Shown: piece after piece, positions 2,023 to 47,364 of the stretch | Layout: every line of letters begins with the position of its first letter | How positions within the stretch are numbered: the stretch's first letter is position 1 | Assembly: GCA_910575665.1 (NCBI GenBank) | Contig: CAJTFB010000009.1 | Location: 1 to 64,000, forward strand | From: Eubacteriaceae bacterium | GTDB taxonomy: Bacteria > Bacillota > Clostridia > Lachnospirales > Lachnospiraceae | Length of the DNA: 64,000 nucleotides | Direction: 5' to 3' | Notes under the pieces: generated by a model | What the model saw: the letters and a program-made list of their open reading frames with translations, nothing else | The model's database searches: none | What the model was told of the DNA's origin: nothing | Made by a program: the position numbers and the translations under genes

Positions 2023-2052
2023 AATGCTCCTTTCCATCGAATTTCAAATAAT

Positions 2053-2802: not shown

Positions 2803-2832
2803 AATGCTCCTTTCCATCGAATTTCAACTAAT

Positions 2833-3582: not shown

Positions 3583-3612
3583 AATGCTCCTTTCCATCGA
3601 ATTTCAACTAAT

Positions 3613-4362: not shown

Positions 4363-4384
4363 AATGTTCCTTTCCATCAGAAAT

Positions 4385-22580: not shown

Positions 22581-22595
22581 ATTAATCCTCATTTC

Positions 22596-22739: not shown

Positions 22740-23186
22740 TTAGTTTTTCCTTCCCCGGAACAACGTTTTCAAACAATGAACCATCTTCGAAAGCATGGGA
22801 CGCAACGGCCGGAGCCACAGCCAGAGACAGCTGTACATCCGGTACAGCCGGTTCTCGACAGATATGGTTCTGCCATCGCGGATCACCGTCGTAACCTTTC
22901 CCTTGATCTGGGTTATCCTGATGGGTCCCTCCACCTGTTTCTGGTTGTCACCTACCATAAAAAAATCATCCCCGCGCCGGTGGCAGATACGATGAAGGAC
23001 GAGGATACTGCCCTCCCGCCGGAACAATACAATGTCCCCCCTGCGAAGCCCACAAGGATCTTCCCGTTCGATGACTACCTCATCCCGGCCCGGCACCAGC
23101 AGGGGATACATGCTGTAGCCCTGCGGCTTGACACGAATCCGATTCCCTTCCTCTAATAACTGCTCCAGATCAAGTCCGATGTTCAT
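22740..23186 (-). CDS. S26/S24-type signal peptidase-like protein
   Basis: A 148-residue protein. The catalytic serine box is GYSMYPLL (S-M-x-P) at about residues 28-35, and the second box is VLHRICH, giving a Ser-His dyad as in SipW/eukaryotic-type signal peptidases rather than the Ser-Lys of E. coli. FMVGDNQKQVEGPI is the conserved 'GD N' block. There is no clear N-terminal anchor; hydrophobic residues near the C-terminus (LYRMYSCLWLWLRPL) may attach it to the membrane. The start at 23184-23186 has GGGAGGGAGAGAT. It is divergent from the PqqD-HPr-kinase gene and shares a palindromic promoter region with it, so it probably matures a peptide handled by those genes. Confidence 0.85.
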   Translation of the reverse strand: MNIGLDLEQLLEEGNRIRVKPQGYSMYPLLVPGRDEVVIEREDPCGLRRGDIVLFRREGSILVLHRICHRRGDDFFMVGDNQKQVEGPIRITQIKGKVTTVIRDGRTISVENRLYRMYSCLWLWLRPLRPMLSKMVHCLKTLFRGRKN

Positions 23187-23248
23187 ATCTCTCCCTCCCT
23201 TGCCATAGTGCGGCGGCGCCAAAGAATTTTCCTGGATTGTTTCGGTCT

Positions 23249-23281
23249 ATTATAGCATTTTCTCATAAAGAATGCTATAAT
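23249..23281. promoter_or_regulatory. palindromic divergent promoter
   Basis: ATTATAGCATT (23249-23259) and AATGCTATAAT (23271-23281) are perfect 11-bp arms around an 11-bp centre. Each arm holds an extended -10 (TGCTATAAT), one reading right to the kinase gene and one reading left to the signal peptidase gene. A symmetric binding site or a mirrored promoter pair. Confidence 0.7.
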
Positions 23282-23309
23282 AAAATCAATTGTTTAAGGG
23301 AGGTTTTCC

Positions 23310-24473
23310 ATGAAACGAACCGACGGTTTTCTACTTAAAAAAATAAATCAGGTCCCCTATCTCCTTCCTGTGGGACAGCGGATCGCCGAACAGCGCAGGG
23401 GAATGAAATTAAATGAAACCGGAGAACAGATCTGGAATCTTATTCCCTTCGCAGAGGACCGAAATGAGCTGCTGGCGCTTTTAACAGATTATTATGAAAT
23501 TCCCCTGGAAAATAAAGATATGCTGAAAAAGGATATGGACTCCTTCCTAGACCAGCTGGCCGCCTGGGGAATGCTGGAAGAACCTCCCCTAGCCCCGCCA
23601 AGTTCTGGAGCCGATATGAAGATCGGAGGACTAGCCCTTCATATTTCTGCCCCGAAAAAACTGATACCCTCAGAATTCCTCCCCTTTTGTAACGGTGAAG
23701 CCCGGTCCCCCGACATGACCATCGAAATCCTTCCCTCCACCGGCCTGTCCACCGCCTCTTCCGGCGGACTGCTTCGGATTCAGTCAGAGGATCTTCTGGT
23801 CTGCGAACAGGAACAGGAATACCGGATCCTGTTCCCCCAGTCGCCGCAGCTACAGGAGTGCATACTGCAAAAAGACGGAACGTTTGCTCGCTTTTATGTG
23901 ATTCCTCCATACCGGGAACCTCTTCTGTCGGATCTGTTCCACGCCATCCGGCTAGTATTCCTGTACATGGCAGGAAAACATGGACGGCTGGCCATTCATT
24001 CCGCCTCCCTATACTATAGAGAGCGGGCGTGGCTCTTTGCCGCCCCGTCGGGCACCGGCAAATCCACACACACAAACCTATGGAACCAATATTTTCACAC
24101 GCCGGTATTAAACGGGGATTTGAACCTGATTTCCTGTGAGAATGAAACTCCCATGATACACGGGATTCCCTGGTGCGGGACCTCTGGCATCTCCGATGCC
24201 TCTTCCTATCCACTGGGCGGGATCGTTCTTCTCAAACAATCACCCACAAACCTGTGCTGGGACCCAGCAGAGGACGAACAGACACTTCTGGTCCTGCAGC
24301 GGAGTATCTCCCCTGCTTGGACAGAGGAGATGTTAGATGAGAACCTTCGCATCGCTGCGGCAATCACAAGCTCCTGCTATGTCACCCGTTTATTGTGTAA
24401 CAGGGAACGGGAGGCCGCGAAGTACATGAAGGCCTGCATCGATGACCATCTGCGTCAGATTGGTGATATTTAA
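23310..24473 (+). CDS. PqqD domain fused to an HPr-kinase-like domain
   Basis: A 387-residue protein. Residues about 1-95 are PqqD-like (LNETGEQIWNLI is the hallmark), the domain that binds leader peptides in peptide-maturation systems. Residues about 110-385 are HPr kinase/PEP-carboxykinase-like, with the P-loop AAPSGTGKSTHTNLW and GIPWCGTSGI. Kinases of this kind phosphorylate lasso-peptide precursors in Firmicutes (paeninodin-type PadeK). A fused PqqD gives the kinase its own recognition module. The RBS is AAGGGAGGTTTTCC. The ABC exporter gene starts 27 bp downstream, so they form an operon. No asparagine-synthetase-like cyclase or B2 protease is nearby, so this is not a normal lasso cluster. 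Confidence 0.88.
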   Translation: MKRTDGFLLKKINQVPYLLPVGQRIAEQRRGMKLNETGEQIWNLIPFAEDRNELLALLTDYYEIPLENKDMLKKDMDSFLDQLAAWGMLEEPPLAPPSSGADMKIGGLALHISAPKKLIPSEFLPFCNGEARSPDMTIEILPSTGLSTASSGGLLRIQSEDLLVCEQEQEYRILFPQSPQLQECILQKDGTFARFYVIPPYREPLLSDLFHAIRLVFLYMAGKHGRLAIHSASLYYRERAWLFAAPSGTGKSTHTNLWNQYFHTPVLNGDLNLISCENETPMIHGIPWCGTSGISDASSYPLGGIVLLKQSPTNLCWDPAEDEQTLLVLQRSISPAWTEEMLDENLRIAAAITSSCYVTRLLCNREREAAKYMKACIDDHLRQIGDI

Positions 24474-24500
24474 AACATTCGATATAGAATGGAGATTATT

Positions 24501-26261
24501 ATGCTTGATACTCTGAAACATTTGAGAAAGCGAATCCGGGAGGGAATCCTCACAGATATGCTTGCTCAGACAAAATGGATCTACCAGTATGCCAGACGTT
24601 ACTGGCTGGCGATCGTATTTTATACCCTGATCGGACTCACTGGAACCGTTGTTTCCCTAGGAAGCAGTCTGGTTTCTAAAGATCTGATCGATATCATCAC
24701 CGGACACCAGACCGGTGAGCTGCTAAAGGCTTTTTGCGCCATGATCGGCCTGGCGCTGGGTGGTACTGTGATGAACCAGTTTTCCAGCTACATCTCCAAC
24801 TGGATCAGTATAAGGGTGGATAACGAGATCAAAGCCGATATGTTTTCTAAAATGCTGGTGACGGACTGGGAATCCATCTCCACCTACCATACTGGAGACC
24901 TGCTGACCCGCTGGAATTCCGATGCCTCCAATATCTCCAATGGCATCCTGAACTGGATTCCCAGCCTGATCATTAATACTTTTAAATTTATCAGTGCCTT
25001 TGCCATCGTCATCTACTACGATGCTTCTTTTGCTGTGTTTTCTTTTATTGGCATTCCCGTGACACTGCTTATGTCCCGGACACTGATGAAACGGATGATC
25101 CACAACAACCAGAAAAGCGCCGCCTTAAATGCCCGCATGTCGGGTTTTCATCAGGAAGCCTTTTCCAATATACAAACCATAAAGGCCTTTGACCTGATCC
25201 CGGTCTATATCAAATATTTAAAAAGTCTTCAGACAGAGTATCTGTCCATGCGGCTGGATTTCCAGAAGATGTCTATGATCTCCTCCATCCTCATGTCCAT
25301 TGTCGGTCTTATCGTCAGCTACAGTTCCTATGGCTGGGGAATTTACCGGGTCTGGGACGGCGTCATCAGCTATGGGACCATGACCATGTTCCTCTCCCTG
25401 TCCGGCACATTGACTGGTACTTTGAATGCCCTGATCGGTCTGGTTCCAAATGCCATCAGTCTGACCACCTCTGCTGGCCGTCTGATGGACATTCTGGATA
25501 TGCCAAAGGAGGATTTTAGTCAGGACGACGCCGTTCTCGCCTTTTACGAACGCCACCGAGAGCAGGGAATCCGCCTGGAGGTATCTCATATCTCCTATTT
25601 TTATCAAGCGGGGACAAAAGTATTTGAAAATGCCAGTCTCCACGCCTGCCCCCATGAGATCATTGCTCTAGTAGGCCCCTCCGGGGAGGGAAAAACCACC
25701 ATGCTCCGTCTGATCCTGGCACTGCTGACTCCCCAGGAGGGTTCCATAACACTACAGAGCTCAAGTCCGGGAACCACGGAATCCCTCTTATTATCCCCCT
25801 CCTGCCGCAAACTCTTTTCCTACGTTCCCCAGGGAAATACTATGTTTTCCGGCACGATCGCAGAAAATATGAGAAATGTCAAACCCGACGCCTCTGACGA
25901 GGAGATCATCCATGCCCTGAAGATGGCATGCGCATGGAAATTTGTGTCTGCTCTGCCAGAGGGCATCCACAGTAAAATCAAGGAACGGGGCGGGGGATTT
26001 TCAGAAGGCCAGGCCCAGCGTCTCTCCATCGCCAGGGCGCTGCTACGCAAGTCAGCCTTTCTGCTTCTGGATGAAGCCACCTCTGCTCTGGATATCGAGG
26101 TAGAGCGCCAGATCCTGCAGCACATTCAGGAGGACCGCTACCCAAGAACCTGTATCGTCACCACGCACCGGCAGGCTGTCCTCAAGATCTGCAGCCGCAT
26201 ATACCAGATTCAGGACAAACAGTGCATTCAAATAGAAAAAGAAGAACTCCAGAATCAGTAA
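24501..26261 (+). CDS. ABC exporter, fused membrane and ATPase domains
   Basis: A 586-residue half transporter: about six membrane segments in residues 30-310, then the ATPase with Walker A GPSGEGKTT, Q-loop region FSYVPQGNTMFSGTI, signature SEGQAQRLSIARALL and Walker B AFLLLDEATSALD. The signature motif is SEGQ rather than the usual SGGQ. It has no N-terminal C39 peptidase, so any leader would be removed elsewhere, for example by the S26 peptidase gene nearby. The start is the ATG at 24501 with GGAG six bases upstream; the ATG 12 bp earlier overlaps that site. Co-transcribed with the PqqD-kinase gene. Confidence 0.93.
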   Translation: MLDTLKHLRKRIREGILTDMLAQTKWIYQYARRYWLAIVFYTLIGLTGTVVSLGSSLVSKDLIDIITGHQTGELLKAFCAMIGLALGGTVMNQFSSYISNWISIRVDNEIKADMFSKMLVTDWESISTYHTGDLLTRWNSDASNISNGILNWIPSLIINTFKFISAFAIVIYYDASFAVFSFIGIPVTLLMSRTLMKRMIHNNQKSAALNARMSGFHQEAFSNIQTIKAFDLIPVYIKYLKSLQTEYLSMRLDFQKMSMISSILMSIVGLIVSYSSYGWGIYRVWDGVISYGTMTMFLSLSGTLTGTLNALIGLVPNAISLTTSAGRLMDILDMPKEDFSQDDAVLAFYERHREQGIRLEVSHISYFYQAGTKVFENASLHACPHEIIALVGPSGEGKTTMLRLILALLTPQEGSITLQSSSPGTTESLLLSPSCRKLFSYVPQGNTMFSGTIAENMRNVKPDASDEEIIHALKMACAWKFVSALPEGIHSKIKERGGGFSEGQAQRLSIARALLRKSAFLLLDEATSALDIEVERQILQHIQEDRYPRTCIVTTHRQAVLKICSRIYQIQDKQCIQIEKEELQNQ

Positions 26262-26309
26262 GAAACCCATTGTACCAGCCTGATTGATACCAAAGCTAGC
26301 TCGACCGTA

Positions 26310-27802
26310 TTACTTGATACGAATCTTTTTCACCTGACTCCATTTTCCATATATTTTTTTTCTGCCTGCAGTACGATATGCCCGTACTTTCACATAATAT
26401 CGACGGCGGCTTTTCAACTTGTTAATGGTCAATGCCGTCTTCTTCTTTGAGCGTACAAGATAGGTTTTCTTCCCTTTTTTCATCTTCCTGTTATTGGCGA
26501 TCATAATCTGATAACCGCTGGAATCTGCCTTTTTCCACGTGATTTTCATCGTATGCTTCTTTTTACTCAATAGTTTCTTTATCACTACTTTGGATGGTTT
26601 TTTTACTGTGGACTGAGTTGTATGGTCTGGCGGGGCAGTAACTGGTGTGAAATCCGGCCCTTGTGGTGTCGGGGTCTGTGACGTTGATGGCACTGGTGGC
26701 TCTGTTTCCGTCGGCGGAGGTGGAAGATATTCTCCTTCCTCATTGGCTTCTGTCCAGTTCTCACCGTTCCCCTTCGGCACTGCTGTAATATACCCACCAG
26801 ATCGGGCGGCGTGCCGCTGGATTTTGTTGTTTTACATTTGTGGTCATCAGATCACTCATGCCATTCCAGTTTTTCGACTCCATACAGCCTTTTATATTTT
26901 TGTCAACACCTGTTCTTATCACATTGGACATACTCCTTGCCCAATCGGTAGGATTGGTGCTGCCTGCATTGTTCTCTTCCCAGATAATATATTTTCCATT
27001 GGCTTTCGGGTATTGCTCCTGCAGGCTGCGAATGGTATCTGCCCACTTGGTCAGCTGGGGAAACGTGGCAAATTTATCATCTTTCCAAAAAGCATGCCAC
27101 GAAGGCCCCTCGACCGTAATATCATTATCACTGGCATACGGGATATAAAAATCTGGTATCCCGCCAAAACCAACTCCTCCTGGCCCCACCGCCGGAATAT
27201 CATCGGGATAGACTTCCCGCAGCGCCTCCCACACAACACGATAGGTCTCTTCCGTGCCGGTCCAATACTCATTTGTCAGCTCTGCATAATCCGGCTTGGC
27301 GCCATTGTCCTTCATGAATTGAAGGACATCCTTTATATACTGCTTAAAGTTTGCCAGCTGCTCTTTTGTCTTCAGTGGCTCATTTTTGCTGGTATCCATC
27401 GGACTTCCGCTGGCTGTCGCCCACGAAGGGTTCATTCCCATCAGCATATACCACTGAAAACCGCAGGATTTTGCCCGCCGGAACGCTTCCAAATGCCGTT
27501 CCTTTACACTTCCTTCATACGTATAGTAACTTCCATCCAAGTCACCAATTGCCTGAAAATTTTGTACGGGAAGGGTTTCGCGATTCAAGAGCGACCCCAA
27601 CAACGTCAAACGGCTGTCCGGCACATCATAGTTCGGAGTAAGAATATAACCGAACTTCCCGCTGTATATCGGAACAGTCGGCTGTAATTGCCGGTGTTCC
27701 TTCTGCCTGAACGTTAATGCTGCCGGGATTCAAAAGTCCAAATCCCATGAACAGCAGCAGAAATAAAACACCTGCAAAAAACCTTTTCTTTTTTGCTTTC
27801 AT
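26310..27802 (-). pseudogene. secreted clan-A glycosidase-like protein with Fn3 end, two frameshifts
   Basis: One gene broken in three frames. The first part (ATG 27800-27802 after AGGAGGCAACGGT) gives a signal peptide with a long hydrophobic core (FFAGVLFLLLFMGFGLL) and ends at a stop near 27630. Continuity resumes in another frame from about 27690 (PTVPIYSGKFGYILTPNYD, then PDSRLTLLGSLL), giving a TIM-barrel-like body with two acidic motifs typical of clan GH-A retaining enzymes: ELTNEYW (acid/base) and YIIWEENNAG (nucleophile). A second shift near 26770 moves to the frame of GENWTEANEEGEYLPPPPTE, a Pro/Thr linker and a Lys-rich Fn3-type domain to 26310. A sequencing error could explain one shift, less easily both. 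The neighbouring AraC gene is also broken, so the pair looks decayed. Confidence 0.8.
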
Positions 27803-27967
27803 ACCGTTGCCTCCTCTGCTAGTTATTTTTGTTATATAACATTATATTTTATTTTTTTCCGCTTTTCTTGAACTATTTTATTTAAAACTAATACGATTTT
27901 GATCGGATCGGATTGAACCCAGACAAAGAATATGATATCATTGAAAGAAAAGGAAGGAAGGAACTCT

Positions 27968-28488
27968 ATGGCAGCATTGGGCACCACCAGTTACATCGAG
28001 AACATAACCCATCAGACACAGCACCGTCCCTTTTCGATTCACCACACGATCGTACAACCGAATGTACCGTGCGCCTTATACCTTCATTGCCATTCGGAAA
28101 TGGAATTTTTTTATTTGGAAAAAGGAAAGGTAACACTGCAGGTGGAAGACAAGGACTATTTTCTGCAGGAAGGTGATGCTGCCTTTATCCCGCCAAATGT
28201 GCTTCACAGCTCCTGGCGCGCCTGTGGTCTGCTGGATGAGTGTTCCTTCTATGCCATTGTTTTCTCCAGGGAAATGATTATGGATTGTACGCCTTCCTAT
28301 TGTGAACACTATTTTGAGCCGATTTTGTACAATGCCGCCAACTGCTCGCTTTCCATTCAGTCCGATGCCGAATGGAAACGGGACATTCTTACTTCAACAA
28401 CATCAGCTACTACAATCGTATCTTTCTACGGATCATGAAGGAAACTCCCTCCTCCTACCGAAAACACTTTATCACCACTGGAAAGTAA
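27968..28488 (+). pseudogene. AraC-family regulator with an internal deletion
   Basis: The start ATG at 27968 follows AAGGAAGGAAGGAACTCT. The first ~150 residues are the cupin sensor domain of an AraC regulator (LHCHSEMEFFYLEKGKVTLQV, GDAAFIPPNVLHSS). At about 28385 the frame loses sense, and in another frame the sequence YFNNISYYNRIFLRIMKETP followed by SSYRKHF appears, ending at TAA 28486-28488. That is the very end of an AraC HTH domain ('SYFNRIFK...G.TP..YR'). About 100 residues between the two are missing, so DNA binding must be lost. It is divergent from the broken glycosidase gene, which it probably once regulated. Confidence 0.8.
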
Positions 28489-28591
28489 AAAAAGAAGAAA
28501 TCCCTAAATCAGAGAGAGATTTTTCATGATATAAATATCTCTGCTTCAGATCTGGAAATTTCTTCTTTTAAAATTAAAATCATCTCATCTA

Positions 28592-28966
28592 TCAATCCGT
28601 GAGTTTTACACTGGTCACCTGGAGGCCTGTATCCGCTGTAACGACCAGATCCCCAAGTCCAATATTATCTGTTGGATTCTGGTGATAAAAATAATCAATC
28701 ACAAGAGTTGTTCCTGTACCGAGACCAACAAGAGTTCCATTGCTGTGCTTATATTCGACAGGCAGATTAAAGGAGATCGTCATCGTCTGTTTGTCTTTTG
28801 TGTGGTCCGCCTGATGTTTGCCATCGATCTGAATCCGGTAATCACCGCGGCCAGTCTGCATCTCCTGATGTACCCGCGTCGTGATGGTATAACATCCACT
28901 GGCTGCATAAACACCCTCACTCAGCTCTTCATTGATCAAGATGGTCGGTTTGCTATACTCTTTCAT
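28592..28966 (-). CDS. small leader-bearing protein, candidate substrate of the PqqD/ABC system
   Basis: A 124-residue protein. The start ATG at 28964-28966 has GGAGGATGAACGT in front; the ATG 15 bp upstream overlaps that site. The first ~20 residues (KPTILINEELSEGVYAASG) are charged and not hydrophobic, so it has no Sec signal, yet they end in a small-residue motif (VYAASG) that looks like a cleavage point. The rest (YTITTRVHQ, GRGDYRIQIDG, TISFNLPVEY, TSVKLTD) is predicted beta-rich and starts just after a single cysteine. I have the impression of similar unnamed proteins in Lachnospiraceae but cannot check. It has its own strong promoter, lies near the nucleotidyltransferase and is not in a clear operon. 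Export by the ABC transporter is an inference. Confidence 0.75.
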   Translation of the reverse strand: MKEYSKPTILINEELSEGVYAASGCYTITTRVHQEMQTGRGDYRIQIDGKHQADHTKDKQTMTISFNLPVEYKHSNGTLVGLGTGTTLVIDYFYHQNPTDNIGLGDLVVTADTGLQVTSVKLTD

Positions 28967-29016
28967 ACGTTCATCCTCCATAAATAAAAAAGCGGTTAAC
29001 TATGCATCTATATCGT

Positions 29017-29046
29017 ATTATATAACATTATTTTATACTTTGTCAA
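29017..29046 (-). promoter_or_regulatory. strong promoter of the small leader-bearing gene
   Basis: Consensus TTGACA (29041-29046), an 18-bp spacer and consensus TATAAT (29017-29022) on the minus strand, about 50 bp before the start codon. One of the best promoters seen in the window, which suggests abundant product. Confidence 0.85.
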
Positions 29047-29058
29047 TGATTCGTATCT

Positions 29059-30294
29059 TTATTTATCCTTTTCCAAATTTTTGAACAAATGCAGTTCCTT
29101 CGTATACCGGCTCCGCTCTTTGGTTCTTTTGATCACCTCAAAAAAGGAAATCCTCCGGATCTTCCGGTTATTCCAGCAGAACTTTACAAAAGTCACCGCC
29201 CACAATACCGGCCAGAGCAGCAGAATACGGCTTGCGCCGGGATACCCCAGCCGCATCTGATGATGAAATTCCCTGATATAATCCATTAAGCCATTTCCCC
29301 GGAGCACCACCATCCGGCTTTCTTCATTGAGACCAAACTCCTCGGCATCGAGAATCTCCCTCATGAATACCTCCAAAGGGCCCTGAAAGGTTCCTGTCAA
29401 AATTCTTTTTGCACGCTCTCTGTGTAATCCGAGATATTCGGCGCAAAGAGAGGTGATCATATCGGAAAATCCCTCCAGTCCGGTCTGTCGTATCCCCATG
29501 AGATACTCTTCCCGTTCTCTTTGAGACACCTCCCCGTTCCAAAGCACCACCCAGTCACAGAGAAGCTTCAGGCCGAACCCTGCACGCAGAAAATGCTGCA
29601 GCATATGAAGTATCAGCTGAAAGGCGTGGTCCCCCTTTTCCAGAACCGGGAAATCCAGTCCCATCACATGGACTACCTGGGTCCGCCATCGCATCTGATC
29701 CATATGTTCTCTCAAAAAACAGTTGACCTTTTCACTGTCGAAGGGTTCTGCCATCATTACATGCAGTTCCACATCGATCCCCTCATCAGTCCGCCATACC
29801 TTATGATGATTTCCATTCTCGCCAGGTTTCCTGGCAAATCCCATCCCCTGGAGAATCCCTTCTGCCCTCTCTCGCTGCTCCGGCTCCAGCAAGAGCACAT
29901 CCACATCTCCAGATTTGCGCAGTTCCGGTACCGGATAGGCCCCCGCGGCGGCAACTCCTTTGAGAACTACAGAAGAAATTCCTGCCTCTTCCAGTCCATT
30001 CACCACATAGTGGGTGAGAAACATCAGATGATAGCTCTGCTGAACCGTGCGCCGGCTCTCATGTTCCAGGCGGCACCGGACCGATTCTGGCATCGGATAT
30101 CCCTGCTCCACAAGAGGATACAACAAAGGCAGCACCGCATGAGCCTGCGCTAGCCCCAGGATCTCCTCCCAGCATCCATCATCAGAAAGCGGCTGTTCCG
30201 GGACCTTCGCTTCTGCTCCGGAAAGCACAGCAGCCAAATAGCCAAACAGCTTATTTTCACTCTGGGAAAATGTCACCTTGATCCTATTACTCAT
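29059..30294 (-). CDS. nucleotidyltransferase family protein (NTP_transf_5 type)
   Basis: A 411-residue protein of the large uncharacterised nucleotidyltransferase family that accompanies peptide-maturation and polysaccharide loci. The key motif is VVLKGVAAAGAYP followed by LRKSGDVDVLL, giving the 'G-S/R..GD.D' metal site with two aspartates; VELHVMMAE supplies the third acidic position. The start is the ATG 30292-30294, which overlaps the flippase stop by one base (TGATG) and has GGAGGGGGAAGAGC upstream, so translation is coupled. In lasso-peptide clusters of Firmicutes a similar protein accompanies the HPr-kinase-like enzyme. What it modifies here is unknown. Confidence 0.85.
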   Translation of the reverse strand: MSNRIKVTFSQSENKLFGYLAAVLSGAEAKVPEQPLSDDGCWEEILGLAQAHAVLPLLYPLVEQGYPMPESVRCRLEHESRRTVQQSYHLMFLTHYVVNGLEEAGISSVVLKGVAAAGAYPVPELRKSGDVDVLLLEPEQRERAEGILQGMGFARKPGENGNHHKVWRTDEGIDVELHVMMAEPFDSEKVNCFLREHMDQMRWRTQVVHVMGLDFPVLEKGDHAFQLILHMLQHFLRAGFGLKLLCDWVVLWNGEVSQREREEYLMGIRQTGLEGFSDMITSLCAEYLGLHRERAKRILTGTFQGPLEVFMREILDAEEFGLNEESRMVVLRGNGLMDYIREFHHQMRLGYPGASRILLLWPVLWAVTFVKFCWNNRKIRRISFFEVIKRTKERSRYTKELHLFKNLEKDK

Positions 30295-31829
30295 CAGCTC
30301 TTCCCCCTCCATTTTTCTGTCAGATCCATAAACTTCTTCCATAAAAATCGGAATTCCCTTGTGCGAAAATAGCAGAGGAGAAAGATCAGATTCGGAATCG
30401 TGATACAGATCAACAGGCGGACTCCTAAAATTCTCCCTATCCCGCCCCCCACTCTGAGACAGAGCAGATTGGTCACAAAACCCGCTGCTGTCACCACCGC
30501 TGTGTAAAACCCATAGCGCATAAAATAAGAGGCGGCACTGATCTTTAAACTATGCCGGTACAGAATCCACGGTTCTACCCAGAAGGAGGTCAGGAGCGTG
30601 CTGATCAACGTCCCGCCAAATACTCCCACCGTACCAAACTGCCTTGCCAGGACGATGGAGATCCCCAGATTCAGAAGCGCCCCTGCCAGGGATTTGTACC
30701 GGTCAAACCAGAATAATCCCAGAGAATCCCGAAATACCAGCGCCGCCTGCCGCATTCCCGTGATGAAGAAATTCAGGCACAATACCAGAACCACCTCCAT
30801 CGGAAATACATACTGGGCGCCAAAGCTGATCTCTACAAAGGGATTTAACAGTTCATAGAGACAGATCACCGCAAAACCATACATCCACTGTCCCACAAAA
30901 AAGGAACTCTCAAAGATCCGTCTCACCCTGCCGCTGTCCTCCGTCACTCCCAGATTTCCCACACTGGCCGTGATTCCCCGGAACACCTGGCTCACCAACT
31001 GATGAATGGAACCGATCACCAGATAATAGTTGGAATAACACCCCACGCTGATGATCCCTACAATGGAGGACAGCATTAGATTGTCGGTGTTATTCACCAC
31101 CACGTCCCCGATCTTGTGCATAAGCATAGCACGGATATTTTTAAATATCCCCTTTCTCTCCTCAGGGTCCAGGGGCTGGATATTCTTCTCTTTCAGATAG
31201 GGATAGAGGCGGTTCGCTTTTCTGGATATGCTGATATTATTTCCCAAGGTACACAATATATATATGACGAGAAACAGTATAAAATTATGGGTCGTCAAAA
31301 GAAGTATGATCTGCAACGTATCCTGGATCAGAAGAAATATCATCTGGTAGATCTCTCCGATATAGCTAAGCTGATGGGCATCGATCAGTGTTTTTTTGTA
31401 AATCAAAAGGTAGGACAGCACCGAATTTGCCAGATACATCAGATAGATCAATATAAGATGATCCACCTCCGGCTGATGCCGGATGAGTACATCCATAAAT
31501 GGGATGACCGCCAGCCCCCCTGCTAAGACGATTCCCGCCACGATACGATAAAACCGGCGGTACATCTTCATAAGGGACTTCTGCCGTTCAAAATCCCCCT
31601 CTGCGATCGGCTTATAAAGGGCATAGGTAATGGCGGTACCCACCCCAAGTTCAGACAAAGCCAACACATTGAGCACATCCGAAAAGAGGCCATTTACCCC
31701 GACATAACTCTCACTGAGGCAATGGGTAAATACCACTCTTGTGACAAACCCCATAAGGATCGCGACGATCTTCGATACCATCGCCGCGGTGGTATTGCGG
31801 ACCGAGTGCTCCGTCCTGCTTCGCTCCAT
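30294..31829 (-). CDS. oligosaccharide flippase-like membrane protein (MATE/MVF clan)
   Basis: A 511-residue protein with about 12-14 hydrophobic segments, typical of Wzx-type flippases that move lipid-linked sugars across the membrane. The start at 31827-31829 follows GGGGGCGAAAGAAAGTG; the frame stays open 43 codons upstream without another site. Motifs such as VRNTTAAMVSKIVAILMGF and LGVGTAITYALYKPIA are those of polysaccharide-biosynthesis flippases. It is translationally coupled to the nucleotidyltransferase and divergent from a DUF4832 protein. It may serve a second polymer besides the PelG-dependent one. Confidence 0.88.
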   Translation of the reverse strand: MERSRTEHSVRNTTAAMVSKIVAILMGFVTRVVFTHCLSESYVGVNGLFSDVLNVLALSELGVGTAITYALYKPIAEGDFERQKSLMKMYRRFYRIVAGIVLAGGLAVIPFMDVLIRHQPEVDHLILIYLMYLANSVLSYLLIYKKTLIDAHQLSYIGEIYQMIFLLIQDTLQIILLLTTHNFILFLVIYILCTLGNNISISRKANRLYPYLKEKNIQPLDPEERKGIFKNIRAMLMHKIGDVVVNNTDNLMLSSIVGIISVGCYSNYYLVIGSIHQLVSQVFRGITASVGNLGVTEDSGRVRRIFESSFFVGQWMYGFAVICLYELLNPFVEISFGAQYVFPMEVVLVLCLNFFITGMRQAALVFRDSLGLFWFDRYKSLAGALLNLGISIVLARQFGTVGVFGGTLISTLLTSFWVEPWILYRHSLKISAASYFMRYGFYTAVVTAAGFVTNLLCLRVGGGIGRILGVRLLICITIPNLIFLLCYFRTREFRFLWKKFMDLTEKWRGKS

Positions 31830-31956
31830 CACTTTCTTTCGCCCCCTTTTATTTTTATATCGTATTTTTAGCGCTTCTATGCTATACTTAGCTCGATGCC
31901 GCTGATCAGACATGCCGTCCTGGCGGCGCCACCATATAAGAAAGGAAAAATTTTTC

Positions 31957-33387
31957 ATGTCCCATTTTATCCATAAAAAATGTTATATTCTGTTGGGCAG
32001 CCTGGTTCTGGTATCCGGGCTGTGCGCCCTGTTTTACTTCACAGCACCCCGTACCCGGTATGAGGCCGCTGCTATGACAGAAAACAGTGAGATCCTGAAC
32101 AATCCCTATTGTGGATTCTATCACCTCTATGGCTATCTTCTGTCAGAGGAAGGCAGGAAACCAGCAAGGCAGTGGTGTGAGAATATGCTGGCAAACGACT
32201 CCCAGTCTATCCTACTGCTGCAGATCAACTTAAGACATTATTCAAATAAATCCATCAGTAGCTCTGCCCTGGATCAGCTGGATACGATACTTTCTATTTT
32301 TTCTGGTGCTGACAGACAGCTTATTGTCCGCTTTCTCTACGACTGGGATGGCAATGCCCTCCAGACGGAGCCTGCCAGTCAGGATCAGATCCTGTCCCAC
32401 ATGAAACAAGTGGCGCCGGTAGTAAACCGCTTCTCCAGCCATGTTTTTCTCCTGCAGGGGATATTCACCGGCAACTGCGGGGAGATGAACCAGACCCATT
32501 ATGGAGACAGGGAACATCTGTCTCTGTTTATGGAAACCCTTGCCTCTGTGACCTCCCCGGATATATTTTTATCGGTGCGGACACCCCAGCATCTGCGGAC
32601 CATCACAGGTACCAGAACGCCCCTGGACAGCAGCCAGGCTTATACTGGAACCCTTCCTGCGCGTCTCGGTCTCTACAACGACGGTATGCTCGGTGATGCG
32701 TACGACTGTGGCACCTACGACGACACTCCCTTTGCCGGAACCGGTGATCCCGCTGAAAAGGGAACCCGGTCCGAAGAGATCCAGTTTCAGAACCAGCTCT
32801 GTCTTTATGTGCCCAACGGCGGTGAAGCCGTATTAGATAATCCCTATAACGATCTCGACCGTGCAATCCAGGATCTGAGACAGATGCATGTCTCCTATCT
32901 CAGCGCCGACCATGAGGCTTCGGTGCTGGACAAGTGGAAAGCTTCCCAGTATCAGGGAACCTCTGGTGATCCCTTTGACGGGAACAGCGGCTATGACTAC
33001 ATCGCTGCCCATCTAGGATACCGATATGTGGTGCGGGATTCCTGGGTGACTGGCACAAAGGGATTCCGTCCCCGGCCCATCCTGCACATAACTCTGGAAA
33101 ACACTGGTTTCTCCCCTGCCTACCGCCCCTTTGACACGAAGATTTTTCTACAAAATACTGACAGTGGAGAAAAAATCTCCCTTCCCGCTGATTTTGACAA
33201 TCGGACTCTGCTGCCTGACAAACCACAGACCCTGTCTCTGCCCATAGATATAAAATCAGTCCCGGAGGGAACCTGGCAGCTCTCTCTGTCCATGACCGAC
33301 CGATCTACCGGCATTTCCATCCAGTTTGCCAATGGCGGTCAGAGTTCAGAAGAAGAGGTGGTTTGCGGTCAAATCAGCATACAGTAA
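31957..33387 (+). CDS. membrane-anchored DUF4832/DUF4874-type protein
   Basis: A 476-residue protein with an N-terminal membrane segment (CYILLGSLVLVSGLCALFYF) and an extracytoplasmic TIM-barrel-like body. The family signature is NNPYCGFYHLYGY at the start of the barrel; further blocks are QLIVRFLYDWDG, FLLQGIFTGNCGEMNQTHY and FLSVRTPQHLR. The C-terminal ~130 residues form a beta-sandwich (LHITLENTGFSPAYRPF). Its homolog is encoded convergently with a 14-bp overlap. The families are uncharacterised but probably hydrolase-like; in an exopolysaccharide locus they may trim or bind the polymer. The start ATG 31957 has AAAGGAAAAATTTTTC. Confidence 0.82.
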   Translation: MSHFIHKKCYILLGSLVLVSGLCALFYFTAPRTRYEAAAMTENSEILNNPYCGFYHLYGYLLSEEGRKPARQWCENMLANDSQSILLLQINLRHYSNKSISSSALDQLDTILSIFSGADRQLIVRFLYDWDGNALQTEPASQDQILSHMKQVAPVVNRFSSHVFLLQGIFTGNCGEMNQTHYGDREHLSLFMETLASVTSPDIFLSVRTPQHLRTITGTRTPLDSSQAYTGTLPARLGLYNDGMLGDAYDCGTYDDTPFAGTGDPAEKGTRSEEIQFQNQLCLYVPNGGEAVLDNPYNDLDRAIQDLRQMHVSYLSADHEASVLDKWKASQYQGTSGDPFDGNSGYDYIAAHLGYRYVVRDSWVTGTKGFRPRPILHITLENTGFSPAYRPFDTKIFLQNTDSGEKISLPADFDNRTLLPDKPQTLSLPIDIKSVPEGTWQLSLSMTDRSTGISIQFANGGQSSEEEVVCGQISIQ

Positions 33388-36641: not shown

Positions 36642-36691
36642 ACACACCTCCCGCTTGACCCGACGTCATCGAGCGAATGAATATAGGAATA

Positions 36692-37063
36692 CTAATTTTT
36701 CTTCTTGAGCTCCTCCAGCTCTGCCAAGATCCGCTCATTTTCCTGATTCAACAGGGAAACCTGCATGGCAAGTTCCTGATTTTTGCGGCTCAGAACAGAA
36801 AGTTGTATACTCAGAAAATACAAACAGCACACAACACAGCCACCTGCCACGATGATAAGCAGCATACCCGTTCCACTGACATACTGGCTCAACGTCACCG
36901 GACGAAGAAGTATCCCCGCCAGAACCAACAATAAAGATATTACCCCCCAGAGCAGGCAGAACTGCTCCTTTAACCGCCGTTTCGCCAAAGATAATATGGT
37001 CTGCATAAATATTAATACACCCGCTGTAATCATTACGATCCGTAATATCGCTCCCGTCTGCAT
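36692..37063 (-). CDS. DUF2304 family membrane protein
   Basis: A 123-residue protein with three hydrophobic segments and a C-terminal coiled coil (SVLSRKNQELAMQVSLLNQE and on). DUF2304 proteins often sit beside GT2 polyprenyl-phosphate glycosyltransferases, as here, and may help flip or anchor the product. The ATG 37061-37063 is preferred because GAGGAGGA, made by the last codons of pelG, lies ten bases upstream; an ATG at 37070-37072 overlaps the pelG stop. Confidence 0.85.
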   Translation of the reverse strand: MQTGAILRIVMITAGVLIFMQTILSLAKRRLKEQFCLLWGVISLLLVLAGILLRPVTLSQYVSGTGMLLIIVAGGCVVCCLYFLSIQLSVLSRKNQELAMQVSLLNQENERILAELEELKKKN

Positions 37064-37068
37064 GGACA

Positions 37069-38544
37069 TCATTCCTCCTCATTCTCTATTTGCTGTAACA
37101 CCAGCGAATAACGGTCAAACACTTTGGAATCTGGCTGTTTTCCATGACCCGTCTCTAAAATACTTCCCCGGCAGAACACGTGCTCATCCAGATGATCCTC
37201 CAACCAGTTTAAGCGGTAGTAGGCACTGCACCACCCCAGAAAAGCCCCGGTGAACACACCGATCCCATACCAGATCTCCGACAGATTTACCGCCACGATG
37301 CTGCCGCCAAGGGTTGAAAGGCAGAAAATCAATGCGGTCAGAAGGGAACCCGTAAGATCATTAAAATAGTACAGGAAGATGATCGCTGCATACATGATAA
37401 ATAATATAAAATAACCTGCTGCCAGACATGGATAGATTTTCATCACCATCCCCCCAAAACCAAACCGGGGAAGCAGGATAATACACAAGAAGAACAACAC
37501 CGCAGATATAATAAATTGAATTCTGGCGAGATTCAGCAATTCCTCGGAAACCTGACGGAACATCCGCTTCTTCGCCAGATCGATATCCATCTCCCTGCCG
37601 CCGATCACTGCCTCCGAGTAGGCCTTATACCTCTCATGAAAGTGCATTTCTATCCGGGAAATAAAAATGATCGAAGTAGATATATTTGTAAACATAGCAA
37701 GGCATGTGGCCAGATCATAGGATGGGGCGCTCACAAAGGTGTCCACCACCACCATCTGAAGTTCTGTGGACCAGAATACAAAATTATGAATAAACAATCC
37801 AAGGATATACAGAAAATTCGTCACAATAAGCTTCCAGTACCGCTTAAAATAGTGCAGTACCTTTTTATATTCCCCACTGTTGCCCCTAAAATAATTCCGT
37901 ATCACAGCGATCTCCAGACTGGCGATCAGAAGGAACCCAGCATCCAGAGAAACCAGCATAGAAAATGTCTTTTCCAAATGGAACCCATAGACAAGTACAG
38001 CAGATAAGCCTATGGTCAGCACCATCCCCAGAAAGAAAAAGAAGGAGATCTTATTATAATCTTTACAGATCGACAAATACAACATCTCATAAAATACCAG
38101 AACCAGCAAAACATATCCACTATAGCCGGCTACGACAAAAGCACCTGACACCTGCGCCACCATATACTCCCGGATACAGAAGGGAATACCAAACAGACAA
38201 CTGAATCCAACATTTATCATCATCCCCACATAAAAGCAGGGAAGAACATCATCGTAAGTCTCATTATAGATCACATCCGACATATATCTTGAGAGAACAG
38301 AATTAAAGGGGGCCGCTGTCAGTAACGAAAAAATAAAGATATATAGGACGGTGCAGGCAAACAGCTCCCTGGCTGCATAACCGATTTTCGATATCTCCAA
38401 AATCAGCTGCATGGCAACAATAGCGAAAATTACCATGATCATAGGAGCGATGGTGATCACCGTACTATATCCCATACCGACAAGATTGGTAGTCAGCGTA
38501 TTTTTATTGTATATTTTATTCAGTTTTACGCCGATTCCAGCCAT
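37069..38544 (-). CDS. pelG: PelG-like exopolysaccharide transporter
   Basis: A 491-residue protein with about 12 membrane segments (MOP superfamily). The opening GIGVKLNKIYNKNTLTTNLVG is typical of PelG, as are YSTVITIAPMIMV, FNSVLSRYMSDVIY and LYILGLFIHNFVFW. In Pseudomonas and Bacillus cereus PelG forms the membrane complex with PelD, PelE and PelF that makes and exports the cationic Pel polymer. The gene is 15 bp downstream of pelF. The start at 38542-38544 has GGAGGGGTGATC. Confidence 0.92.
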   Translation of the reverse strand: MAGIGVKLNKIYNKNTLTTNLVGMGYSTVITIAPMIMVIFAIVAMQLILEISKIGYAARELFACTVLYIFIFSLLTAAPFNSVLSRYMSDVIYNETYDDVLPCFYVGMMINVGFSCLFGIPFCIREYMVAQVSGAFVVAGYSGYVLLVLVFYEMLYLSICKDYNKISFFFFLGMVLTIGLSAVLVYGFHLEKTFSMLVSLDAGFLLIASLEIAVIRNYFRGNSGEYKKVLHYFKRYWKLIVTNFLYILGLFIHNFVFWSTELQMVVVDTFVSAPSYDLATCLAMFTNISTSIIFISRIEMHFHERYKAYSEAVIGGREMDIDLAKKRMFRQVSEELLNLARIQFIISAVLFFLCIILLPRFGFGGMVMKIYPCLAAGYFILFIMYAAIIFLYYFNDLTGSLLTALIFCLSTLGGSIVAVNLSEIWYGIGVFTGAFLGWCSAYYRLNWLEDHLDEHVFCRGSILETGHGKQPDSKVFDRYSLVLQQIENEEE

Positions 38545-38559
38545 GATCACCCCTCCTCT

Positions 38560-40017
38560 CTATCCAGTAACAGAAAATGCTTCTTCACTCCAGATCCCTC
38601 CTACATGCCCGCAGAAATCAAAATAAATGTCATAATAGGTCTTGCGCATATCTTCTATCTTGTATTTGCTCATGACCCGGCGATATCCATTTTCCCCCAT
38701 CCTCTCTCTCCGTTCCCGGTTCTGCGCCAGCTCCACCATGGCATCGGTAATCTCTTCCAGATTCATAATGTGGGTGAGAATCCCCGCTGTCCCAAAAGTA
38801 TCCTCCTCGCCATAGATCAGCTCCCGACAGTTCCCCACGTCGGTGGCGATCACCGGCTTATGCGCCGCAAAGCTCTCTAATATCGTCAGCGGCTGTCCCT
38901 CACTGATGCTGGTGAGAATGGTCATATCCATACGCCCCAGATATTCCCTGACATCCACCCGTCCGGTGAATACCACATCCGATACCCCCAGTGTTTCCAC
39001 CAATTCAAAGCACTCCCCGGCATATTCCTCATCCTCGTCACAAGGACCCATGATAAACAGCCGAAGGGCTGGTACCTTTTTTTTCGCAAAGGAGAACGCC
39101 TGAATCATTGTCTTTACATCCTTGATGGGAGTGACTCGTAGTACCGCCCCGATCTGGATCTTATTCTGTTCCGCCTCTGTTTTTCCAGGAAGTTCTTCCA
39201 GTCTGCCCGTATCGATGCCATTGGGGGTCACCCTAGTTTTTTCGGCAGGACACCCCAGCTCGATCTGGAGACTTCTGGCGTGTTCATACAGACTGGTAAC
39301 CAGATCCGCCCGGTCATAGGCTGCCAGAGACATCTTTTTAAACTGTTCAATCCAAATATTTTTATAAATCCCATCCACCCAGTCTGCCTTGATCAGCTCT
39401 TCTTCCCTCTCCCTGGTATAGATCCCGTGCTCTGAGACCAGCAGACCACAGCCGTAAAAATGCTTTGCCATGCTTCCCAGTATTCCGGCGTAACCAGTGG
39501 AGACACAATGATACAGGTCTGCCAGAGGAACCCTGGTCTTTAATACAAAAAACAGGGGAAGATAGATGGATCTAAGAGTCCACAAAAAGTCCGAGAATAC
39601 GATCTGAGAATAGCGGATCTTATAACATTCCCTGGCGATATGAAAAAAATCCGGTCCCATCAATAATTCATCGATGGAAAACCTTTTAAAATAAAAGAGG
39701 TTAAAGATAATGTCCCAGTCTATCTTTTCATTGAGCACCATACTTCTCAGCGCCTGGTATTCCTTTTTATTTAACTTGAATTTATTTCTTTTCATCTCCC
39801 GGTTCTGCCAGTCGCGGTCCTCTAAATATACCTCGTGAACCTCCGTGAGATTTTCTGGCAGTTCATAGGCAAACCTGCCCCGTTGGGAACGGTTTGCCAC
39901 GATGGCCAGCAGGATAAATTCAATATTAGGAAAATTTCGGATCATGCTGTGAATCCAGCCGGATACTCCGCCTACCACATAGGGATAACAGCCCTCTGCC
40001 ACAATACAGATCTTCAC
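38560..40017 (-). CDS. pelF: PelF-like GT4 glycosyltransferase
   Basis: A 485-residue glycosyltransferase. The N-terminus (VKICIVAEGCYPYVVGGVSG then WIHSMI) and LVSEHGIYTREREEELIKADW are the marks of PelF, the cytoplasmic polymerase of Pel that uses UDP-sugars. Donor-site motifs: VTPNGIDTGRLEEL, AVLRVTPIKDVKTMIQAF and EGQPLTILESFAAHKPVIA (E-x7-E). The GTG at 40015-40017 is likely the start, with AGAGGTGA in front; another GTG lies nine bases upstream. It is followed directly by pelG. Confidence 0.93.
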   Translation of the reverse strand: MKICIVAEGCYPYVVGGVSGWIHSMIRNFPNIEFILLAIVANRSQRGRFAYELPENLTEVHEVYLEDRDWQNREMKRNKFKLNKKEYQALRSMVLNEKIDWDIIFNLFYFKRFSIDELLMGPDFFHIARECYKIRYSQIVFSDFLWTLRSIYLPLFFVLKTRVPLADLYHCVSTGYAGILGSMAKHFYGCGLLVSEHGIYTREREEELIKADWVDGIYKNIWIEQFKKMSLAAYDRADLVTSLYEHARSLQIELGCPAEKTRVTPNGIDTGRLEELPGKTEAEQNKIQIGAVLRVTPIKDVKTMIQAFSFAKKKVPALRLFIMGPCDEDEEYAGECFELVETLGVSDVVFTGRVDVREYLGRMDMTILTSISEGQPLTILESFAAHKPVIATDVGNCRELIYGEEDTFGTAGILTHIMNLEEITDAMVELAQNRERRERMGENGYRRVMSKYKIEDMRKTYYDIYFDFCGHVGGIWSEEAFSVTG

Positions 40018-40092
40018 CTCTCTCACCTCTTTTCTCTATCCTAATTCTTCCTGATTTTAACTAAAACATTCCTTAACGGGACAAGGCACACA

Positions 40093-41913
40093 TCAGGGCA
40101 GGTAATAATATAAGGAATCCTCCGGTTTACATGTGATCGTCAACTTCTCCTGACTGGCGCGGATTAGATAAGCGTCCGTCTCGATCTTTTTGAAATCTCC
40201 GCCCTGTACCGATATCACCTCTTCACCATGGGTTCGAAGGATAAACCACAGGTCCCCGTTCTGATCCTTTATGCTGACATGAATCTCGTCACCCTCTCTG
40301 GAATCCTCATAATCCATCGCAAGAAAATTTCGTATTCTCCTATCGCATTCGGAAGCCGAGGTCTGATCAAACATCTCAAAGGCCTTCCAATAGGTATTGA
40401 TCTGGCTGGAAAACTTCTCAGATACGATTTCCCAACGATCTTCCTCTTTTTCTGGCCAAGTAATCTGATTCATGTCCAAAACGATATTCGAATAACCCAA
40501 CGCCGTCTGAAGACTTTTCATCCGAATATCTTCCTTATAGGTATGAGAAATTCCCGTACTCGTTATACTTTGAAGCGTCGTTTTGTCATCCAGATAAGAA
40601 ACCACCGGGCGCTCTGCCGAATAGATGCTTGCCACGGTCTGAATACATTCAAAAAAGGCATAGTCCTTCAGCTTCTCTATGCTGTACGCCGCCCCGCCTG
40701 AAGGAATATAAGCTGCCCCATAGCGGTACTGGCTGCCGGAATTCTGGAAGAAGGACTGATCTGCCTTCATCTTCCGGGGCAAATCACCAGAAGAAACATA
40801 CTCCAGTGTAAGTCCTGCCTCCGCCTCCCTCTCCTTTAACTGACGAAGATAAAAAATCAGCTGATCCTTCCGGGGCTCCTTGTCGTCTCCGTAATCAAAC
40901 TGTGGAGCGAGATAACAAGTCAGATGGGCGCCGCTTTTCTCTACGTCAGAATAGAGTCCCGGCCAGATGATATCCCGGAATACGGCGGGCAGCTCCCTAC
41001 TGTAGAGCTCTTTCATTTTCTCCGAGTTCTCTGCCGCCAGCCCTGGAAAATTTGCCACCCCCATACACTGGGCATTTACCACGGGATACAGATCATAGGG
41101 TTTAATCTCTGCCAGGATGGCGTTCAACATGCCAATCCCGGTGCAGTCTCTCATAAAGTCACCATTTACGGCAAACACTTTGCCCTTACCAACACTGGCA
41201 CGCCAGATCAGCGGCGGCAGCTCTTCATTTTTTACCGTGGGATCAGAAAGCATGCCCGCTATATAGGTTTTGCAGCCGATACGGGTCTGGTACCAGGGTA
41301 TATTCAGCTCCAGATCCTGACGCTCCTGCTTTTCCTCTTCATCCGCCGGAAGATAAATCCCCTGCCCTCCCAGTAAGAATCCAGAAAAGAGGTTTACTCC
41401 CTGGATCTCCTGGCGCTGCTCTTTCACCTGGCGGATTCCCAGCAGCTCTTTCCACTGGCGGGAGGCTTTGATCTCATAGGCATCCGGCAGATCACAAAAA
41501 ACCAGATTGCCTCCCCTCCGAGCCATCTCCGTCAATGTCTCGATTTCCTTTTTTTCTCTGACATAGGACGATTCCAGAAGAAGCACTTCCGCCTTCTGCC
41601 AGGCATCCTTCGGACAGTCCTCCACACTCTGGCAGACCACCAGCTCCCGCTTCGTATATGTACACCACCAGGAGACAGTCTTCCCGATATCGCTCTTCCC
41701 ATTTCCCACATACAGCACATACCCGCCCTTTTTCAGCACTTCCTTCGGAGAGCTTTTCTGCCAGGCATCCTCTCTTTCCAAAGTGGCATCCACTGCATAG
41801 TTATTGACGTCATATTCATTTCCTGACTCTTTCATAATCTGTGAGAACTGAAACAGAAATAACAGTACGAACATGGTCACACCCATGATCAGAAAATTTT
41901 TCCTTGTTATCAT
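40093..41913 (-). CDS. DUF2194 protein of the Pel-type locus
   Basis: A 606-residue protein with a single N-terminal membrane segment (FLIMGVTMFVLLFLFQFSQI) and an extracytoplasmic body. The first ~250 residues look like an alpha/beta domain (GGYVLYVGNG, GKVFAVNGDFMRD), and the next ~250 (HLTCYLAPQFDYGD, LKEREAEAGLTLEYVSSGDL) resemble a polysaccharide-deacetylase-type barrel. DUF2194 proteins occur beside pelF/pelG in clostridia; I infer a polymer-modifying or deacetylase-like role replacing PelA, but cannot place catalytic residues with certainty. The end (IETDAYLIRASQEKLTITCK) is beta-rich. Confidence 0.75.
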   Translation of the reverse strand: MITRKNFLIMGVTMFVLLFLFQFSQIMKESGNEYDVNNYAVDATLEREDAWQKSSPKEVLKKGGYVLYVGNGKSDIGKTVSWWCTYTKRELVVCQSVEDCPKDAWQKAEVLLLESSYVREKKEIETLTEMARRGGNLVFCDLPDAYEIKASRQWKELLGIRQVKEQRQEIQGVNLFSGFLLGGQGIYLPADEEEKQERQDLELNIPWYQTRIGCKTYIAGMLSDPTVKNEELPPLIWRASVGKGKVFAVNGDFMRDCTGIGMLNAILAEIKPYDLYPVVNAQCMGVANFPGLAAENSEKMKELYSRELPAVFRDIIWPGLYSDVEKSGAHLTCYLAPQFDYGDDKEPRKDQLIFYLRQLKEREAEAGLTLEYVSSGDLPRKMKADQSFFQNSGSQYRYGAAYIPSGGAAYSIEKLKDYAFFECIQTVASIYSAERPVVSYLDDKTTLQSITSTGISHTYKEDIRMKSLQTALGYSNIVLDMNQITWPEKEEDRWEIVSEKFSSQINTYWKAFEMFDQTSASECDRRIRNFLAMDYEDSREGDEIHVSIKDQNGDLWFILRTHGEEVISVQGGDFKKIETDAYLIRASQEKLTITCKPEDSLYYYLP

Positions 41914-41917
41914 ACGC

Positions 41918-44221: not shown

Positions 44222-44242
44222 TGGCAGCACCCTCTATCTTCC

Positions 44243-47331: not shown

Positions 47332-47364
47332 TTCTGCCTCCACGCCGTTTCATCCAGATCCGCC

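Follow-up and report, generated by a model that had tools for sequence, protein, structure and literature searches.

Which pathway is encoded by a set of peptide-maturation enzymes that has no cyclase beside it? This question is raised by a locus from a Lachnospiraceae genome (Eubacteriaceae bacterium, GCA_910575665.1, contig CAJTFB010000009.1, positions 1 to 64,000; this whole stretch of 64,000 nucleotides is hereafter "the window"), in which an original prediction had placed an S26 peptidase, a PqqD domain fused to an HprK-like kinase, an ABC exporter, and an NTP_transf_5 nucleotidyltransferase (NTP5) within 22740..30294. All four genes were confirmed at the positions given, PqqD and kinase do form one chain of 387 amino acids (aa), and the cyclase and B2 protease of lasso clusters are indeed absent from the set, as PF13471 (B2 protease) has no match in the genome and its one Asn_synthase lies on another contig. 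Since the strands of its parts differ, the set is not one operon. We consider it probable (roughly 80%) that these genes form a module for maturation and export that resembles the clusters for linear polyphosphorylated peptides (LPP) and is attached to a Pel-type exopolysaccharide operon; it would act on a leader-bearing precursor by the steps set out below. The system is real, conserved, and coherent. The proposal of a new class did not hold, however, as the same enzyme set (SpI peptidase, RRE, HprK-like kinase, NTP transferase, and MsbA-like pump) was already published as LPP in May 2026 (PMC13381572; statements on this and the other papers cited refer to the excerpts of them available).

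Conservation of the gene set

A gene-neighborhood comparison, suggested along with the original prediction, revealed strong conserved co-occurrence both in fused loci and across genomes. For 48 non-redundant fused loci (without the window), the 10 kb around the fusion included an S26 peptidase in 41, an ABC exporter in 45, an open reading frame (ORF) whose leader scored 8 bits or more in 40, and NTP5 in 29; when the count was limited to the 31 loci that extend 7 kb or more to either side, these numbers were 28, 29, 27, and 20, respectively. Six duplicates were dropped and L094 was excluded from this collection, L089 and L093, which start inside the kinase at a contig end and group as fused in the kinase tree, were included, and L063 was left out of alignment A3 and kept in counts and tree. 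The scan of named genomes covered the best 80 of 97 relatives, with 28 loci counted as fused (L089 and L093 among them) and 52 others. Among the fusion-bearing records are those of Coprococcus catus and Anaerobutyricum hallii DSM 3353 (L084), the latter also containing ABC, S26, NTP5, and a precursor. In many of the 52 other loci the five genes stand in a single run without fusion (e.g., L104, L107, L130, and L135), some with small precursors starting with YxKP or similar.

We then considered 298 genomes, at least 90% complete, of the same family, taken as Lachnospiraceae on the basis of nearly identical loci in named records. An intact fusion was found in 17 of these, as established from frames, match ranges, and alignments A2 and A5 (one further genome, G077, was dropped as its fusion has a decayed P-loop and no cassette was seen), and fusions with a strongly diverged PqqD could have escaped the search in the other 281. 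A 24-residue leader profile (E ≤ 1e-6) matched 26 sites in 16 genomes, i.e., 16/17 fused genomes (16/18 if G077 is included) and 0/281 others. The seventeenth, G117, has a weak leader match (E 0.06) beside its fusion gene; it is one of 21 further genomes with weaker matches (E 1e-4 to 0.1), most of them partial, for 37/298 at E ≤ 0.1. Three of the 26 sites are on contigs other than that of the fusion, so that leader detection is independent of neighborhood. NTP5 was over its cut-off in 17/17 fused and 91/281 other genomes. The E-value limits for the leader, and for the second PqqD and Pel marker introduced below, were chosen after the lists had been seen, genome-level P values take no account of shared ancestry, and since the queries came from fused loci, the absence in the other 281 genomes is the independent part of the co-occurrence. 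Within the genus of the window, 11/39 genomes (this one included) encode the fused protein, and unfused relatives were found in two, one of which also has the fusion.

Precursor, leader, and cores

The original prediction had invoked a leader-bearing small protein without naming it; such a precursor lies inside the interval it had outlined (28592-28966, minus strand). The gene has 124 codons, a Shine–Dalgarno site, and a perfect consensus promoter 50 bp upstream. Its first 24 residues (MKEYSKPTILINEELSEGVYAASG; pattern YxKPxI...EGVYAASG) recur in relatives beside the same enzymes, joined to quite different C-terminal parts. When 54 distinct leader-bearing ORFs were compared (the one in the window and 53 from loci whose leader scored 20 bits or more), their cores, 54–148 aa long, fell into 11 groups (BLASTP, E 1e-4), the largest with 33 members and six being singletons, and single loci contained up to three precursors with diverse cores. 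The motif E-x-[VI]-[YF]-x-x-S-G was present in 54/54, with Ser and Gly invariant; neither residue was imposed by the search pattern, though the profile score favors both.

Judging from its structure model, which starts at the Ser-Gly, the core of the window precursor may have a CBM2-like fold. PF00553 (CBM2) had no match in this precursor, and another core (L078) narrowly missed the cut-off of 24 with 22.6 bits. A PDB sequence search with the precursor profile gave no believable match, and no paper in open-licence PubMed Central (PMC) full text contained the EGVYAASG motif. The second core group (L048:11808-12170 and eight relatives) consists of proteins of 81–101 aa, with four Cys in 8/9 and, in several members, the pattern CDSxYMxGxWQAPDYS...GCLGCPA...CGL...DNGKRKPSWE; the one member scanned had no Pfam match.

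Promoters with at least 11/12 consensus bases within 160 bp upstream were found for 20/54 precursors, compared to 7/295 other genes of the set and 37/713 other ORFs, where the precursors are distinct but include some close orthologues, and the controls include duplicates and take the first start codon as start. Such strong promoters suggest that the precursor products are abundant.

These precursors also bear on whether the locus belongs to a lasso or otherwise cyclized pathway for ribosomally synthesized and post-translationally modified peptides (RiPPs), with cyclase and B2 protease encoded elsewhere in the genome. In the literature excerpts available, paeninodin-type lasso clusters have HprK-like kinase, PqqD, and NTP_transf_5 as accessory genes, and in one fused genome (G117) B2, Asn_synthase matches, and NTP5 stand together on contig C2, with the fusion on C13. 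Nevertheless, among 27 fused genomes only 2 had a PF13471 match that passed the cut-off and 4 others had one below it, in each case off the contig of the fusion. No Asn_synthase was found within 10 kb of a fusion in these 27 genomes, where some contigs end sooner, the nearest being 19 kb away (G293), and the cores are long. A scan of the loci for CxxxCxxC motifs, covering 506 ORFs with 180 aa or more, returned 3 matches, none radical-SAM-like by eye. A lasso cyclase, B2 protease, or radical SAM gene always found elsewhere with the same set, which had been put forward as grounds to abandon the original prediction, was thus not seen in the 27 genomes and scanned loci, some contigs ending less than 10 kb from the fusion, and none of the B2, cyclase, or CxxxCxxC searches located such a partner beside the set. 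A cyclized product is mostly refuted and appears very improbable.

The PqqD–kinase fusion

In the fusion protein, the PqqD domain spans residues 30-88 (33 bits, cut-off 23), and the kinase half, assigned by fold and not by Pfam, adopts an HprK/PEPCK fold in an AlphaFold model (predicted local distance difference test score 90.1). The two best matches of the fusion profile in the PDB were the solved RREs TbiB1 (E 3e-4) and LppB (E 0.003). Models of the HPr-rel-A, ScmC, and GeoRSP families were also considered and rejected, with scores far under their cut-offs. In a kinase tree of 86 rows, one label change explains the 34 fused rows (support 89/74, not a starred branch), and a single change was recovered in 88% of 200 bootstrap trees, although the bootstrap had yet to converge. 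In L094, the nearest unfused row, PqqD and kinase are separate, overlapping genes in the same order. Taken together, this suggests that the fusion probably arose once, from neighboring genes.

In the LPP cluster lppAKBSDN of Paenibacillus alginolyticus, the leader is bound by the RRE, the kinase phosphorylates core Ser3, and the SipW-like LppS cuts after FET, a cleavage that requires the RRE and is poor without the kinase (PMC13381572). Unmodified LppA is still cleaved when the RRE is present (PMC13381572), which leaves room for the kinase here to leave the precursor unphosphorylated, the fusion and S26 peptidase forming a leader-dependent secretion route in which Ser-Gly is kept for the protease. 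The position of Ser-Gly at the likely cut site, where the modeled core also starts, would fit such a route. Yet P-loop residues and Asp270 are invariant in 26/26 aligned fusions, the LPP kinase acts on a Ser directly behind the cut site, and a fusion with a decayed P-loop (G077/L064) has no cassette in the stretch around it. We therefore regard secretion without phosphorylation as unlikely.

Peptidase and nucleotidyltransferase partners

The S26 protein matches PF00717 just under the family cut-off (E 3e-4), and its best NCBIfam model is the archaeal signal peptidase I (TIGR02228, 31 bits, cut-off 52). Ser25, His65, and Asp80 are invariant in 42/42 homologues and are presumably the counterparts of LppS S29, H68, and D93, the His-Asp spacing being 15 here vs 25 in LppS (PMC13381572). 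A Kyte–Doolittle scan of the S26 protein showed no hydrophobic segment.

The NTP5 gene probably starts with the ATG at 30294, which overlaps by one base with the stop of the upstream flippase-like gene (TGATG), whose product has seven hydrophobic segments. A flippase is adjacent (gap below 150 bp, same strand) or fused in 14/29 NTP5-bearing loci. NTP5 is in one chain with a flippase-like protein in 5 loci (L071, L072, L075, L077, and L089; the L071 homologue scores 22.3 bits for PF01943, below the cut-off of 28.2), with GT2 in 2 (L073 and L086), and, in L068:13556-15790, with a Stealth protein (PF11380 E 3e-42, PF14907 E 2e-41), which we take to be of the sugar-phosphate transferase type.

Association with a Pel-type operon

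The genes on one strand of the window are ordered as PqqD, epimerase-domain protein, 303-aa protein, 770-aa protein, DUF2194, PelF, PelG, small protein, two glycosyltransferase-like genes, DUF4832, flippase-like gene, NTP5, and precursor, with one DUF4832 gene on the opposite strand (Table 1). Based on gene order and the epimerase domain, the central part fits the Gram-positive pelDEADAFG operon: DUF2194 is at the PelADA position, the 303-aa protein at the PelE position, and the epimerase-domain protein is an extended PelD-like one, these PelD, PelE, and PelADA names being suggested by analogy with PMC7112168. PF09960 and PF01370 also matched among these genes. A closely similar order recurs in relatives, and the order of the 31912..36647 genes beside them is conserved as well.

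Using the 303-aa protein as operon marker (E ≤ 1e-30), we detected it in 16/17 fused vs 10/281 other genomes, on the contig of the fusion in 15/16 and 3–25 kb away. The marker thus occurs without the module, whereas the module is almost never seen without the marker. At a looser limit (E ≤ 1e-5) the marker was found in 48/298 genomes. The second, stand-alone PqqD that heads the operon was detected by profile search (E ≤ 1e-20) in 11/17 fused vs 0/281 other genomes. It always shared a contig with the fusion, at a distance of about 0.6–28 kb, and stood directly before the epimerase-domain gene in 10/11; in G293 it precedes NTP5 and has a stop within its frame. G138 and G215 have weaker matches (E 1e-10) in front of the epimerase-domain gene. 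At E ≤ 1e-8 the count rises to 45/298 genomes, those beyond the 11 being at E 1e-15 or worse; a few of these looser matches are the PqqD domains of the fusions themselves, and others, on reading, PqqDs of unfused clusters.

This association is informative on whether the products could instead be bacteriocins or signals, with the polysaccharide link reflecting a shared hotspot. Multiple precursors per locus, diverse cores, and a patchy spread (17/298) are conflict-like, and similar gain and loss was described for LPP clusters (PMC13381572). Against this stand the near-constant operon marker, an operon with a PqqD of its own in 11 fused genomes, and NTP5 fusions to three kinds of glycan-related protein, which make a bacteriocin or signal role improbable.

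Table 1 Features of the module and the adjacent Pel-type genes in the window
Feature	Position	Strand	Remarks
S26/SipW-type serine peptidase (LppS-like)	22740..23186	-	divergent from fusion gene
PqqD (RRE) fused to HprK/PEPCK-fold kinase, 387 aa	23310..24473	+	PqqD match and predicted fold
MsbA/NHLM-type ABC exporter	24489..26261	+	PF00664 E 3e-35, PF00005 E 1e-25
Precursor protein, 124 aa: leader 1-24 and core with predicted CBM2-like fold	28592..28966	-	
Perfect sigma-70 consensus promoter of precursor gene, TTGACA-18-TATAAT	29017..29046	-	
NTP_transf_5 nucleotidyltransferase (LppN/PsmN-like)	29059..30294	-	PF14907 E 1.2e-41
Polysaccharide flippase-like membrane protein	30294..31958	-	weak NCBIfam WZX_like, 19 bits, below cut-off
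DUF4832/DUF4874 protein	31912-33387	+	Pfam for DUF4832 proteins
DUF4832/DUF4874 protein	33374-34675	-	Pfam for DUF4832 proteins
GT2-like protein	34644-35420	-	named by reading sequences, not family search
GT4-like protein	35433-36647	-	named by reading sequences, not family search
Gram-positive Pel-type exopolysaccharide genes	36692..47343	-	PelG PF16933 E 2e-150; PelF NF038011 368 bits
Second, stand-alone PqqD (RRE) heading Pel-type genes	47365..47649	-	PF05402 56.2 bits

Between exporter and precursor (26310-27687 and 27932-28438) are two genes that seem shortened or split: each has an undivided ORF as its homologue in L016, of 1012 aa with fibronectin type III domains for the first and of 311 aa for the second. 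Near the S26 gene, two small overlapping genes (21949-22592) presumably resemble a toxin–antitoxin pair of the ParE/RelB kind; in both L016 and L017, one of the pair is beside S26 in the ORF list. Finally, four tandem ORFs of 247-254 aa at 1294-4377, closely alike by eye, have an N-terminal hydrophobic stretch.

Proposed mechanism

In the LPP-like reading, the precursor would be made from its own strong promoter, its YxKPx[VI] leader would be bound by the PqqD domain of the fusion, and the fused HprK-fold kinase would phosphorylate the invariant Ser of E-x-[VI]-[YF]-x-x-S-G, perhaps several times. NTP5, beside a flippase or glycosyltransferase, may then add a sugar or sugar-phosphate to the Ser phosphate. 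Signal peptidases follow a small-residue rule at the cut site, because of which the S26 Ser-His-Asp peptidase would be expected to cut between VYA and ASG; by analogy with the F-x-[T/A] of LPP, a cut between YAA and SG would be the other candidate. The ABC pump would export the folded CBM2-like core, which could act on the cell surface or within the Pel-like matrix. Each of these activities in this bacterium, the phosphosite and cut site included, is proposed from comparison.

The Paenibacillus LPP experiments together with work on the lasso homologue PsmN, for which the data point to PsmN-dependent hexoses on phosphoserine, with nucleotidylation still conceivable (PMC9266682), offer a precedent for these steps. 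The original prediction of a leader recognized by PqqD, then phosphorylation, S26 cleavage, and export fits the present data and the Paenibacillus experiments; it was right in outline, and not new (PMC13381572). The nucleotidylation that it offered beside phosphorylation stays hypothetical, given these PsmN data and the absence of a visible LppN effect in Bacillus subtilis.

A more far-reaching, doubtful possibility is a protein–polysaccharide conjugation system. The leader-recruited kinase would put a phosphate or polyphosphate on a Ser in the N-terminal region of a folded carbohydrate-binding-like protein, NTP5 with its flippase, Stealth, or GT2 partner would join a surface-glycan sugar to this Ser as a phosphodiester, and S26 and the ABC pump would release the conjugate into the Pel-like matrix, while the second RRE, encoded first in the Pel operon, would steer the same leader to the polysaccharide machinery.

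Returning to the LPP-like module, several questions raised for LPP become testable in this lineage. The role of LPPs is described as unknown and their final product as not identified, deletion of lppN had no visible effect in the Bacillus subtilis host, and LppN is considered as possibly dependent on a partner from beyond the core cluster (PMC13381572). The flippase-like, Stealth, and GT2 proteins found fused to an LppN homologue are candidates for such a partner. Here, the products would be protein-sized and perhaps matrix-associated, and the module is tied to a defined Pel-type operon in gut Lachnospiraceae; if so, RiPP leader logic would be used for the processing and export of whole protein domains.

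Comparison with known systems

Four known systems resemble parts of this locus. HPr-rel-A (TIGR04352/TIGR04353) also pairs an HprK-related kinase with a PqqD-like protein, but the fusion scores only 14.5 bits for the TIGR04352 kinase model vs a cut-off of 200. Paeninodin-type lasso and pseudomycoidin pathways (PadeK/ThcoK, PsmN), in the accounts available, share the HprK-like Ser kinase, PqqD-type B1, and NTP_transf_5-like enzyme; unlike in paeninodin-type clusters, B2 protease and macrolactam cyclase are not beside the set, and an S26 peptidase is. The Gram-positive Pel operon pelDEADAFG (PMC7112168) shares PelF, PelG, an N-terminal epimerase domain on the PelD-position protein, and a similar order, and in Roseburia the Pel locus belongs to a larger cluster that resembles those for capsule or teichoic acid (PMC7112168). 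By contrast, the operon in the window begins with PqqD and is followed by flippase, NTP5, and precursor, an arrangement absent from the excerpts of PMC7112168 available.

LPP (PMC13381572) is the closest of these, with five shared enzyme families (SipW/archaeal-type Ser-His-Asp peptidase, PqqD-type RRE, HprK-like kinase, NTP transferase, and MsbA-like exporter), a YxxPx[VI] leader, a Ser near the cut, several precursors per locus (35–200 aa in LPP), location in polysaccharide loci, and no need for a cyclase. LPPs are called restricted to Bacillota in PMC13381572. On a contig labeled uncultured Spirochaetales, a label that may be a binning error, we observed a complete kinase–PqqD–S26–ABC–NTP5 run (L135:9746-14250) with two precursor-like ORFs of 40 and 43 aa (MKKYVKPEISVTEF... 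and MKEYVKPEVSITEF...), and kinase, S26, and ABC were present in L120 (Synergistaceae label).

The RRE is discrete in LPP and adjacent to the kinase gene, whereas here it is fused to the kinase in one clade, and the stand-alone PqqD of the window is 23 kb from the fusion. The LPP leader reads YxxPxVLxHQxIxFETxxS; here YxxPx[VI] is kept and HQxIxFET is absent, with E-x-[VI]-[YF]-x-x-S-G instead. The terms Lachnospir-, Clostrid-, flippase, and Stealth are absent from the main text of PMC13381572 as far as available, and the uses of fused or fusion visible there (with "length", 12/14 places) denote expression tags. Since the discrete RRE and the leader motif are the two LPP features that differ, the set is not an LPP in the strict sense. 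Its interest lies in features that set it apart from LPP as described in those excerpts, namely one leader joined to 11 groups of protein-sized cores (one modeled as CBM2-like), NTP5 fusions, and a second RRE heading a near-constant Pel operon. Overall, the set works like LPP and is best called a fused-RRE variant of it.

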